A stretch of DNA of 27,380 nucleotides, taken from the IMG/VR virus record IMGVR_UViG_3300032217_000691, positions 1-27,380 of that record. One strand, 5' to 3'. The position numbers and the translations under genes are program-made. The stretch is from a virus. Positions 4,801 to 9,936 of the stretch are shown piece after piece (position 1 is the stretch's first letter; every line of letters starts with the position of its first letter). The notes under the pieces were generated by a model. The model was not told where the DNA came from. It ran no database searches and saw nothing but the letters and a program-made list of their open reading frames with translations.

Positions 4801-4831
4801 ATTGTATATGTTAACAAAACACATATCTTTG
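4801..4831 (+). promoter_or_regulatory. Bacteroidota-type promoter before the fibre genes
   Basis: ATTG (4801-4804), 19 bases, TATCTTTG (4824-4831) matches the TTG/TAnnTTTG pattern. It ends 18 bases before the ATG at 4850 and follows the hairpin at 4751, consistent with a transcript boundary. Confidence 0.55.
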
Positions 4832-4849
4832 GGCATTAACTTTTTTATT

Positions 4850-5383
4850 ATGGCAATACCAAGTAGACAGATAGGCTGGGGAACAGAAGAAAACCTTCTT
4901 TGGGAAATTTCTAAGCAATTGGAAGCTCTTTTAGGAGTGACATATAAAGCTGGCACTATACAAGTTCCATCAAGTAATATTGTAACAGCTACATTAGCTA
5001 CTAACCAAACTATTGGTGCTTCTGATGTAACAATTAACTATACATCTGTTGATGATCCTCAAGGATGGTTTGATAACTCTACACATAAATTTACTCCTAC
5101 TATTGCAGGATATTATAACATCTCTTATAGTGTGTTATGGGGCACTGGTACTGTAACTACAGGACAACAAATGAATACTCAAATTCATCTTAATGACTCA
5201 GGATTATATATTAGTCAGTCAGTAGTAAATACTAGTATACCATTTACACAATCTGGTAGTAATATAGTTTATCTAAATGGTACCACTGATTATATCACTA
5301 TTACAGGATATTCATCTTCTGCTAGTGGTAGTCAAATAGTTCAGGCTGGAGGAGGTACATTGTTTAACGCTTCTTTAATTTAA
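4850..5383 (+). CDS. Fibre or appendage protein: RQIGW N-terminal module plus C1q-like beta-sandwich
   Basis: The start is set at 4850 rather than 4802 because the promoter -7 box (4824-4831) lies between them and MAIPSRQIGW matches the start of the next gene. The 177-residue protein has an N-terminal helix module (RQIGW ... LLWEISKQLEALL, residues 6-29), probably for attachment to the particle. Then comes a beta-rich domain with FDNSTHKFTPTIAGYYNISY, the hallmark of C1q/TNF-like jelly-roll heads, which trimerise. It ends GGGTLFNASLI. A tail or head decoration that touches the host surface is likely. Family recognition of the C1q-like fold is by motif only. Confidence 0.65.
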   Translation: MAIPSRQIGWGTEENLLWEISKQLEALLGVTYKAGTIQVPSSNIVTATLATNQTIGASDVTINYTSVDDPQGWFDNSTHKFTPTIAGYYNISYSVLWGTGTVTTGQQMNTQIHLNDSGLYISQSVVNTSIPFTQSGSNIVYLNGTTDYITITGYSSSASGSQIVQAGGGTLFNASLI

Positions 5384-6589: not shown

Positions 6590-7021
6590 ATGGGAAATCT
6601 AAGAGATCTTAAAGCATTTGTTCGCTACGATGGTAGTGGAAGAGTAGTTGCAGGTAGTCTTATCTTCAGAAAGAAGAAGCCTACTGTTGGAAACTTTCAA
6701 CAAATACAAGCATTTAAATGCTGTAACATGGACCAAGTACAAATTACAGTTGCTATCCAATCATCATTTCCAATTTCAAGTGTAGACATTGTACTATTTG
6801 GTCAAACTGGTGACAACCTTTATATGTTTGATTACACTGCTGCAAGTGCTGCTGATATTTATGAATTAGCTGCTGTATTAAATGCACACTCTAGTCAATT
6901 TGGATGGTTCAGTGTAGATTCTGCTGGTGTTGCATTATTACTACAACCAAATTCTGCAACTGCTGCATTCTTTGTTGCATCTGGTGCTACATCAATTGGT
7001 GCTGCTGCATTCAATGACTAA
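6590..7021 (+). CDS. Virion-associated protein with shared N-terminal module
   Basis: The 143-residue protein starts MGNLRDLKAFVRYDGSGRVV and continues AGSLIFRKKKPTVGNFQQIQ. This module reappears at the start of the carbonic-anhydrase-like protein at 8330 (LKPYARFNTNGHIVPGTLNL). The remainder is beta- and Ala/Ser-rich (VDIVLFGQTGDNLYMFDYTA, later AAVLNAHSSQFGWFSVDSAG) with no catalytic motif. An abundant structural or decoration protein is plausible from composition. The ATG follows AATTAAAATT, the A/T-rich leader typical of this genome. Confidence 0.6.
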   Translation: MGNLRDLKAFVRYDGSGRVVAGSLIFRKKKPTVGNFQQIQAFKCCNMDQVQITVAIQSSFPISSVDIVLFGQTGDNLYMFDYTAASAADIYELAAVLNAHSSQFGWFSVDSAGVALLLQPNSATAAFFVASGATSIGAAAFND

Positions 7022-7034
7022 TAAAATTTATAAA

Positions 7035-7298
7035 ATGATAGATATAGCAAAAATTAAAGAACATAGTGCTAGAATAAAAGCAATAATTTCAGGTAAACCT
7101 TATGAGGCTCCTGTAGCTCCTGTAGAACCTGTTGTGGTTCCAGAAGTTCCAGAAGTTCAACCTGAGCCTGAAGTAGTTCATGTACAACCTGAAGTTCAAG
7201 CTGAACCAGCGGTAGTTGAAGAAACACCAGTAATTCAAGTAGAACCTGAAGTAGTTCAATCCGAACCTGCTCAAGAATATCCTTTAAACCAAGACTAA
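7035..7298 (+). CDS. Pro/Glu/Val-rich repeat protein
   Basis: The start is placed at 7035 (MIDIAKIKEHSARIKAIISG) because the longer frame from 6927 overlaps the preceding gene by 95 bases and is Leu/His-rich there. The 87-residue protein has a short helical, basic N terminus (1-22), then a low-complexity acidic tail of P-E-V, P-x-P and E-P-V units to the end. Such tails are extended and flexible, and often act as linkers or surface spikes. Its stop overlaps the start of the next gene (TAATG), so the two are translated together. No family recognised. Confidence 0.6.
   Translation: MIDIAKIKEHSARIKAIISGKPYEAPVAPVEPVVVPEVPEVQPEPEVVHVQPEVQAEPAVVEETPVIQVEPEVVQSEPAQEYPLNQD
7089..7283 (+). repeat. 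Imperfect short repeats encoding P-E-V units
   Basis: Within the 7035 gene, units such as CCTGAAGTAGTTCA (near 7168 and 7245) and GTTCAACCTGAGCC-like stretches recur with small changes, encoding the P-E-V-V and V-Q-P-E motifs. The array could expand or contract by slippage. Confidence 0.5.
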
Positions 7299-7720
7299 TG
7301 GCAACATCACTATTTCCAAGTGAGATGATGGAAAATGCAATGGGAAGTGCTCTTACACCAGAAACAATTGCTGGTAAATTGTCCTTTTTTTATGAGCAAC
7401 TACATCTATTACATTGGCAAACAAAATCATTTGCTGAGCATGAAGCTTTAGGCAAAATATATGACAAGGTAGGAGATTTTCAAGATGAGATTGTTGAAAA
7501 AATAATGGGATATAAAGGAACAAGAGTTAAAGCGTACAAAATTGATGTACTTAAAGACTATTCTCCTGGAGCTCCTATGCAAGTGGTAGATGATCTTGTA
7601 AAATTTTCTAAGCAATTAGAAGAGTATGGAGAGGCTAATAATATGCCTGATATTGAAAATGTAGCTCAAAGTTTATCTGGAGAGGCTGCTCAAACTAAAT
7701 ATCGTTTAACCTTGTCTTAA
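7298..7720 (+). CDS. Dps/ferritin-like helical protein (DUF5856-like)
   Basis: The 140-residue protein is mainly helical. Residues 30-70 read FFYEQLHLLHWQTKSFAEHE ... DFQDEIVEKIMG, which parallels the Dps pattern HW-x-x-KG-x-x-F-x-x-LHE ... D-x-x-AER. His39, His48, Asp63 and Glu67 occupy positions resembling the inter-subunit ferroxidase ligands of Dps; the four-residue Asp-Glu spacing is the same. I recall similar phage proteins as DUF5856, but this is from memory. It may bind DNA or iron, or be a small virion protein of the same fold. It overlaps both neighbours (TAATG upstream, shared TAATG downstream). Confidence 0.6.
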   Translation: MATSLFPSEMMENAMGSALTPETIAGKLSFFYEQLHLLHWQTKSFAEHEALGKIYDKVGDFQDEIVEKIMGYKGTRVKAYKIDVLKDYSPGAPMQVVDDLVKFSKQLEEYGEANNMPDIENVAQSLSGEAAQTKYRLTLS

Positions 7721-8042: not shown

Positions 8043-8330
8043 ATGGCAGCAGAAATTAAACAAATGTTTAACAAAGAAGAAACTAAAGTAGAGTCTAAAC
8101 CAGAATTTAATCCAGCTAAGAAATACACTTGGTCTAAGGATGCTGAGTTTACAATAAGTGGCAGTGAATTTGGTCTTATATTAAATGCATTACGTGGTGT
8201 AATTAGTACACAAGAAGCTCAAGCATTGTTCTTAGCTAATGAAGCTGTAGGAGCAATTGAGAATGTTCTTGGTAATGCAGTGGAAAGTGGATTAGTTAAA
8301 GAAATAGTAGATAATAAAGCAAGTTTATAA
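8043..8330 (+). CDS. Hypothetical phage protein, 95 residues
   Basis: The protein has a charged N terminus (MAAEIKQMFNKEETKVESKP), a short strand segment (YTWSKDAEFTISGSEF) and a helical C-terminal half (FGLILNALRGVISTQEAQAL, then a helix to VDNKASL). No catalytic motif or membrane segment is visible and I do not recognise a family. It is the first gene behind the strong host-type promoter at 7995, and its stop overlaps the start of the carbonic-anhydrase-like gene (TAATG). That suggests high expression and joint translation with that gene. Confidence 0.6.
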   Translation: MAAEIKQMFNKEETKVESKPEFNPAKKYTWSKDAEFTISGSEFGLILNALRGVISTQEAQALFLANEAVGAIENVLGNAVESGLVKEIVDNKASL

Positions 8331-9313
8331 TGGCAACAACAACAAGTTCAAATATACCTTTAAAACCTTATGCAAGGTTTAATACTAATGGTCATATAGT
8401 TCCAGGCACTCTTAATTTATATAGAAATGCTCCTACCACTGGTATTTGGAAAGAAATGCAACCTATAGAGTATTTTAATAAAACTACTAAGCATTATAGT
8501 AATGTAATTAATACAACGTATCCAAATGCTTTATTAGCTAATAGTGTTGCTTATAGTTTAGTAAGTTTTCTTGATACTTTAGGAGCTGATGCATATAATA
8601 CTGTTTTAAATTCTACAGTTTGTTCAGATGATGTTAATGCTTCTGAGTTTTCTAATATATTTAATATAGGTCAAAATCCTCCAGCATTAAACAACTACCT
8701 TGGACCATTTATGGGTGGTGGACTTGCTGGATATCCTCATACAGGTATATTAGGAGCACAAGCTTGGCAAAGTCACACTACATCAGATGATAATACAAAT
8801 GGACCTTTGTTATTAATTAACATGCCTCACATAGGAATTACACAACAAGTTGATCTTGTTGCAGCTAATGATAATGTAGGTAGAATGTTAAGAAGAGGTA
8901 AGAGTTCTGCAACAGCTGATAATACATGTGGAGCTGTAGCAACAGCTATTAGTGATGCAATTACATTAAATGGTGTTGCACCAGTGGCTACAAATGCTCC
9001 TTTTGTAAACAACTATCAAAGATATCAACTTGCATTGATTGTTTATGCTTCTTATGCTTATTATAACACTCACACATATTCAGAGAATATGATTCAAGCT
9101 ACAGAACTTATAAGAGTTGCAAGTTATAACATCTTACATGATACAATTATTCCTGCATTAGGATCTATAAACAATTTATATTTATTCAGTGGTACATTCA
9201 TTAATGCTGATGATGGTTATTCTGCATTTATTGATATTAATTCATTAGAAGTGAGAGTTGGAACAAGTTGGACATCTCTTACAACAGACTTTTTAAATTT
9301 TGTAAATGGCTAG
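8330..9313 (+). CDS. Virion-module protein with LCIB-type beta-carbonic anhydrase domain
   Basis: The 327-residue protein has residues 8-48 similar to the start of the 6590 protein (LKPYARF..NGHIVPGTL, then PTTGIWKEMQP), a probable particle-attachment module. Residues about 85-210 match, in order, the motifs I know from LCIB-family carbonic anhydrases: VCSDDV (Cys98, Asp100), LGPFMGGGLAGYPHTGILGA then SHTT, LLLINMPHIGI (His167), VGRMLRRGK, and NTCGAVATAI (Cys200). Cys98, His167 and Cys200 would bind zinc, with Asp100 and Arg188 or Arg189 as the Asp-Arg pair. Such enzymes interconvert CO2 and bicarbonate. A helical C-terminal part (about 225-327) follows. The gene overlaps the next one by eight bases. 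The motif order is striking, but activity is inferred. Confidence 0.6.
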   Translation: MATTTSSNIPLKPYARFNTNGHIVPGTLNLYRNAPTTGIWKEMQPIEYFNKTTKHYSNVINTTYPNALLANSVAYSLVSFLDTLGADAYNTVLNSTVCSDDVNASEFSNIFNIGQNPPALNNYLGPFMGGGLAGYPHTGILGAQAWQSHTTSDDNTNGPLLLINMPHIGITQQVDLVAANDNVGRMLRRGKSSATADNTCGAVATAISDAITLNGVAPVATNAPFVNNYQRYQLALIVYASYAYYNTHTYSENMIQATELIRVASYNILHDTIIPALGSINNLYLFSGTFINADDGYSAFIDINSLEVRVGTSWTSLTTDFLNFVNG

Positions 9314-9719
9314 TATTAAGAAACCTGGTCCGTGGAATCCACAGAAAGCTACAGCTTATGTAGGGAAAGGTGTTCTTAAGAATGGTGGAGGTATAACTCC
9401 TGTTCCTAATGGTCATCTTATTAAAAAAGATGGTACATCATTAAAAAGTGGTGGTAAAGTAAAAGTTAGTGCAGGTGGTGAAAAGCATGTTATATATAAG
9501 AAAACAAGTCCTACAGGTCTTGGTAAAGGCAAAAAGGGTGATATTATGGTGAATCATCCTACTACTGATAAAGGTAAATGGGACACAATAGATCTTACTA
9601 AAATAGCTAAAGCTAAAACAGTTGCACAAGGTGTAGCTGCTACAAAGAAATGGCATAAAGATAATCCTAATTATGGCAACAACAGCAAAAAGCCCAGCGT
9701 GGCAAAGAAAAGAAGGTAA
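9306..9719 (+). CDS. Basic Lys/Gly-rich virion-associated protein
   Basis: The 137-residue protein is rich in Lys, Gly and Thr. It starts MASIKKPGPWNPQKATAYVG, contains LKSGGKVKVSAGGEKHVIYK and ends in a basic tail SKKPSVAKKRR. A predicted beta-rich middle (HLIKKDGTSLKSGGK) is followed by a short helix (DLTKIAKAKTVAQGVAATKK). The K-S-G-G motif recurs in the basic proteins at 9938, 11149 and 11572. No enzyme signature is seen. DNA or RNA binding, or packing within the head, is plausible. It overlaps genes on both sides (8 and 47 bases). Confidence 0.6.
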   Translation: MASIKKPGPWNPQKATAYVGKGVLKNGGGITPVPNGHLIKKDGTSLKSGGKVKVSAGGEKHVIYKKTSPTGLGKGKKGDIMVNHPTTDKGKWDTIDLTKIAKAKTVAQGVAATKKWHKDNPNYGNNSKKPSVAKKRR

Positions 9720-9936
9720 AAATCCTTCAGGTGGTTTAAATGCTAAAGGTAGAGCATCTTATAATAGAGCTAACCCTGGCAAACCTGGATTAAAAGCTCC
9801 ACAACCTGAGGGAGGTTCTAGAAAGAAATCATTCTGTGCTAGAATGAGTGGCATGAAAAAGAAGCTTACAAGCTCTAAAACTGCCAACGATCCTAACAGC
9901 AGAATTAATAAATCACTTCGTAAATGGAAATGTTAA
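9673..9936 (+). CDS. DUF6321-type small basic phage protein
   Basis: The 87-residue protein reads SPAWQRKEGKNPSGGLNAKG near the start, then RASYNRANPGKPGLKAPQPE, SRKKSFCARMSGM and a terminal SLRKWKC. This string of motifs is the conserved core that I recall as DUF6321, present in many marine and freshwater tailed phages; its function is unknown. It starts inside the 3' end of the upstream gene (47-base overlap in another frame). Two Cys, in SFCARM and the C-terminal KWKC, are part of the family pattern. Confidence 0.75.
   Translation: MATTAKSPAWQRKEGKNPSGGLNAKGRASYNRANPGKPGLKAPQPEGGSRKKSFCARMSGMKKKLTSSKTANDPNSRINKSLRKWKC

Follow-up and report, generated by a model that had tools for sequence, protein, structure and literature searches.

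Some phages probably carry an algal-type (LCIB) carbonic anhydrase on or in the virus particle

The LCIB family (PF18599) is known from algal carbon concentration. Of its described members, PtLCIB4 of Phaeodactylum tricornutum (5b5y) and PtLCIB3 seem to be constitutively active (PMC9614477), whereas the Chlamydomonas proteins CrLCIB and CrLCIC (5k5w and 5b5x), chloroplast proteins of the carbon-concentrating system, have the beta-carbonic anhydrase fold and show no activity as purified, for which the disordered residues His162/161 and Arg194/193 are perhaps responsible (PMC5876011). In viruses, carbonic anhydrases have been reported among the auxiliary genes of giant viruses (PMC13037468); publications on a phage LCIB protein were not found in the open-access literature. 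On the phage side, Cellulophaga phage phi17:2 and Leptolyngbya phage Lbo-JY46 (Crassvirales) possess a TerL, portal, MCP and following virion structural protein homologous to those of the crAss-like carriers described below, and a search of these two genomes for an LCIB gene found none.

The gene studied here lies in the window, i.e. the whole analysed stretch of 27,380 nt from IMG/VR virus record IMGVR_UViG_3300032217_000691. It is an intact ORF, from ATG to stop, whose ends overlap both the preceding ORF (8043–8330) and the next one (9306–9719), so the arrangement is operon-like. The following features are referred to below.

8330–9313, + strand: LCIB-type beta-carbonic anhydrase gene, 327 aa (PF18599 match, overlapping ORFs)
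8351–8479, + strand: N-terminal module, residues 8–50, presumed particle anchor (common to the 6590 protein and to non-LCIB proteins)
8486–9304, + strand: LCIB_C_CA catalytic domain, about residues 53–325 (PF18599, E 4e-18; PtLCIB4 overlay, Z 26.4)
8621–8623, + strand: Cys98, predicted zinc ligand (PtLCIB4 C46; 58/58 relatives)
8627–8629, + strand: Asp100, predicted Asp of the Asp-Arg pair (PtLCIB4 D48; 58/58 relatives)
8774–8776, + strand: His149, equivalent of PtLCIB4 H88 (58/58 relatives; mapped via the H88A entry)
8828–8830, + strand: His167, predicted zinc ligand (PtLCIB4 H102; 58/58 relatives)
8891–8893, + strand: Arg188, predicted Arg of the Asp-Arg pair (PtLCIB4 R116; 58/58 relatives, five codons)
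8927–8929, + strand: Cys200, predicted zinc ligand (PtLCIB4 C126; 58/58 relatives)
6590–7021, + strand: second protein of the window with the N-terminal module of the LCIB protein and a different C-terminal part (BLASTP, profile)
4802–5383, + strand: weakly C1q-like protein encoded in the LCIB cluster, candidate fibre tip (PF00386 at E 0.0026, short of the curated cut-off)

Of 32 window genes examined, none is preceded by a Shine-Dalgarno-like motif within 20 bases, and the leaders are A/T-rich. Scarce Shine-Dalgarno motifs fit Bacteroidota, and other groups also use few; the leader pattern is thus consistent with a Bacteroidota host for the window phage and no proof of one.

The initial annotation had read the protein as an LCIB carbonic anhydrase, and this interpretation is supported. 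All the motifs it had named are found at the given positions, i.e. C98-S-D100, GGGLAG...TGILG...SH149, MPHIGI (H167), VGRMLRRGK (R188) and TCGAV (C200), and since residues 72–309 match profile positions 6–222 of 223 of PF18599 (LCIB_C_CA) at E 4e-18, with 66 bits against a curated cut-off of 25, they are not a product of chance. PtLCIB4 was recovered at E 2e-5 even by single-sequence phmmer, while a profile built from 24 phage relatives reached 6kfs (7.5e-24), PtLCIB4 (2.6e-23), 9vzj (1.9e-20), CrLCIC (3.5e-7) and CrLCIB (3.7e-6). Within viral resources, a PHROGs search with the window protein gave no match beyond one at chance level (E 0.25), and Foldseek with the predicted model returned nothing from the BFVD viral structure library at E ≤ 0.001.

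The predicted fold, modelled as a monomer, likewise superposes on the LCIB structures across almost the whole domain. The first AlphaFold2 model, of the full protein with 24 sequences, had a mean pLDDT of 76 with residues 91–136 poorly predicted, and aligned with PtLCIB4 at Z 20.0; this stretch was largely cured by an alignment of 58 sequences for the core (residues 50–327; pLDDT 89.8, pTM 0.89). The core model overlays PtLCIB4 at Z 26.4 and 2.4 Å over 235 of 241 residues, followed by 6kfs (Z 25.8), CrLCIB (Z 21.3) and CrLCIC (Z 20.9). The likeness to PtLCIB4 comprises fold and all known catalytic residues, at about 22% identity between the algal and the window protein. Classical beta-carbonic anhydrases (E. 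coli Can, H. influenzae, plant and fungal enzymes) have a related fold core (Z 10.5–12.4, about 160 residues), but are only 8–15% identical to the window protein and show no match at the sequence level.

For the active site, PtLCIB4 numbering was anchored by two mutant entries, S47R and H88A, whose spacing in the alignments is the expected 41 residues, and catalytic roles were assigned from published work (PMC5876011), these mutant entries and general background. The alignment maps C98 to C46, S99 to S47, D100 to D48, H149 to H88, H167 to H102, R188 to R116 and C200 to C126. Except for S99 (54 Ser, 4 Ala), all of these are invariant in the 58 non-redundant phage relatives, although the codons differ: R188 is encoded by five of them and each His by both. 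The catalytic residues came out alike in an earlier set of 55 relatives, whose lowest pairwise identity was 31%. Two residues can be added to the account in the initial annotation: the catalytic arginine is likely to be R188 of the RRG motif, and H149 is, by its alignment with PtLCIB4 H88, a further catalytic histidine. Going by motif order, H149 and R188 would be the equivalents of His162/161 and Arg194/193 of CrLCIB/LCIC. As judged from sequence, the window protein and its relatives keep every catalytic residue known to us, and this invariance supports a working enzyme. Values of dN/dS against relatives (0.24–0.66) are mild evidence only, dS being poorly corrected at this base composition.

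The phage proteins also have features of their own. Compared with PtLCIB4 they add an N-terminal module and have CSDD in place of CSDE, and near the C terminus they possess an invariant FIN.D stretch that the solved relatives lack. Y56 (8495–8497), D101 (8630–8632), N292 (9203–9205) and D294 (9209–9211) are invariant in 58/58 relatives and do not belong to the catalytic residues known for LCIB proteins; the solved LCIB proteins differ at D101 and in the FIN.D stretch.

Three scans of IMG/VR yielded 86 distinct loci with LCIB relatives (counted as distinct by their first 600 nt), on contigs of up to 272 kb. Neither INPHARED phage records nor PLSDB plasmids nor GTDB contigs gave a relative by tblastn or pattern scan, the patterns reaching close relatives only, and no isolated carrier phage was present among the isolated-phage records searched. 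Contamination with cellular DNA was considered and ruled out, as contigs of the relatives also carry portal, TerL or MCP genes. In an IQ-TREE phylogeny of the phage proteins and three solved LCIB-family sequences, the phage proteins stand apart from the solved sequences with support 100/100. The label ‘T4-like MCP’ requires at least three changes on this tree, which indicates that the LCIB gene has moved between phage lineages. Within a known enzyme family, the phage LCIB proteins form a new branch that is specific to phages and occupies a new setting; they apparently represent a widespread and so far undescribed bacterial-virus family of algal-type carbonic anhydrases.

The MCP was found in 29 of the 86 loci within the sequence stretch at hand, by a search with two models; many of the remaining loci are cut short or have an MCP outside the reach of these models. 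In 27 of the 29, comprising crAss-like and T4-like carriers, the LCIB gene is found on the strand of the major capsid gene, 0.1–8 kb downstream of it. The crAss-like carriers show the order TerL, portal, 425-aa protein, MCP, 330-aa protein, LCIB, virion structural protein and tail/neck genes; in terms of phi17:2, LCIB is inserted where the equivalents of gp65 (as judged by position) and gp64 meet. In the T4-like carriers, LCIB follows the phrog_138 major head protein after about 100 nt (L101 type) or 1.1–1.5 kb (L057/L059 type). The portal of the window's own group is crAss-like (phrog_6547, E 1e-99 in G001), but LCIB is found outside the capsid block there (in G001 the portal is at 29 kb and LCIB at 95 kb). 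It clusters in this group with genes for a phage lysozyme, the weakly C1q-like protein, module-sharing proteins and a Dps-like protein. The Dps-like protein of the window is encoded at 7298–7720 (PHROG starvation-inducible regulator, E 2e-14; PF19174, DUF5856). At 9673–9936, after LCIB, lies the gene for a Lys-rich DUF6321 protein (PF19846, E 5e-20), relatives of which are found beside LCIB in most crAss-like carriers.

While the LCIB domain is constant, the part preceding it has been exchanged, with at least five unrelated N-terminal types among the relatives. The window type (residues 8–50, ‘LKPYARF..G.IVPGSL’) is indeed common to the LCIB protein and the protein at 6590, as had been noted from the sequence (BLASTP E 5e-9 over residues 11–65; profile of the module E 1.3e-11), and heads many proteins of related phages, where it is followed by poly-Thr stretches or other domains. 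In other lineages (L021, L023, L025, L027, L098, L131 and L132) a different N-terminal type is common to LCIB and to non-LCIB ORFs of the same locus, and in L091 and L092 the LCIB domain lies within a protein of 776–779 aa. Three ORFs (L010:1283–2524, L009:211–831 and L002:3607–4089) consist of the window-type module, a long poly-Thr stretch and variable domains, and resemble hypervariable displayed stalks.

A place on the particle is well supported, if indirectly, by the adjacency to capsid genes in two lineages and by exchangeable modules that are common to other proteins. As a moderately probable explanation, we favour that the gene encodes an LCIB-type beta-carbonic anhydrase which is competent in catalysis, belongs to the late virion proteins, is attached by its module, and alters CO2, bicarbonate or pH at the host. 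Specifically, the C-terminal domain would take the LCIB fold with zinc held by Cys98, His167 and Cys200, the Asp100-Arg188 pair would control access to the zinc-bound water, His149 would complete the pocket, and the active site would interconvert CO2 and bicarbonate. The N-terminal module would fix the enzyme to the particle, with the head or neck as the probable site in several lineages, and the unrelated modules of other phages would have the same attachment role; while the phage attaches or enters, the particle-bound enzyme may then shift CO2, bicarbonate or pH locally at the host. The family, the predicted fold, the invariant catalytic residues, the modular build and the location near capsid genes in two lineages were observed here; from them we infer zinc binding, activity, presence and place in the virion, display as opposed to packaging, and a benefit to infection. 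Two observations speak against a virion carbonic anhydrase, namely the distance of the LCIB gene from the capsid block in the window's group (G001) and the inactivity of some LCIB-fold proteins, i.e. CrLCIB/LCIC, as purified (PMC5876011).

The first alternative concerns whether the CO2-converting enzyme that some phages probably possess sits on the virus particle or inside it. An active beta-carbonic anhydrase could be packaged in the head, with the N-terminal parts as packaging tags, and be ejected with the DNA to act early inside the host. A gene that lies between MCP and neck could encode head contents just as well as a surface protein, and small Lys-rich/DUF6321-like ORFs adjoin LCIB in the crAss-like carriers; however, the window-type module also heads proteins with poly-Thr and variable domains, which look more like displayed fibres. 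Packaging is unlikely in our view, and the enzyme is probably displayed on the virion surface.

Alternatively, the protein might act outside the particle, as an auxiliary metabolic enzyme that provides bicarbonate or CO2 for biosynthesis in the infected cell. Both the invariant catalytic residues and the precedent in giant viruses (PMC13037468) agree with such a role. Nevertheless, two lineages that are not related both have the gene inside their structural block, and modules that are common to other proteins and swapped between phages would have no reason in a soluble enzyme, which makes this role quite unlikely.

Receptor-binding proteins are built as a constant C-terminal domain with exchangeable N-terminal modules. 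That the zinc-containing LCIB fold is reused to bind a host or capsid partner without catalysis is very unlikely: the LCIB architecture matches this build and certain LCIB-fold proteins are inactive as purified (PMC5876011), but D100, H149 and R188 are not zinc ligands and yet are invariant in 58/58 relatives, and a tip that binds the host should diversify, whereas the LCIB domain is the conserved part.

Returning to the displayed enzyme, a wider proposal is possible and more tentative, i.e. that an active virion carbonic anhydrase on exchangeable anchors occurs in several large-phage lineages and has been passed between crAss-like and T4-like phages as an aid to adsorption or entry. The virion enzymes known to us break down polymers (cell walls, capsules, proteins) or act on nucleic acids. 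If our reading is true, a particle-borne carbonic anhydrase would let a phage influence its surroundings in a new manner, with an enzyme that works on a dissolved gas and a pH buffer instead of a polymer and controls CO2, bicarbonate or pH, either at the cell surface or inside the freshly infected cell. The LCIB family would thereby gain a second biological setting.

Further gene arrangements were seen around LCIB in the large phages. Tandem pairs of diverged LCIB genes occur at L097:9770–11808 and L089:9599–11662, as well as in L035, L093, L096 and L099; the first gene of a pair is extended at the N terminus and the second hardly at all, and the aligned copies keep the catalytic residues. In addition, a 129-kb phage contig encodes a subtilase (L131:10017–11972; Peptidase_S8, E 1e-30) directly after two module-sharing genes, the first of which is LCIB.
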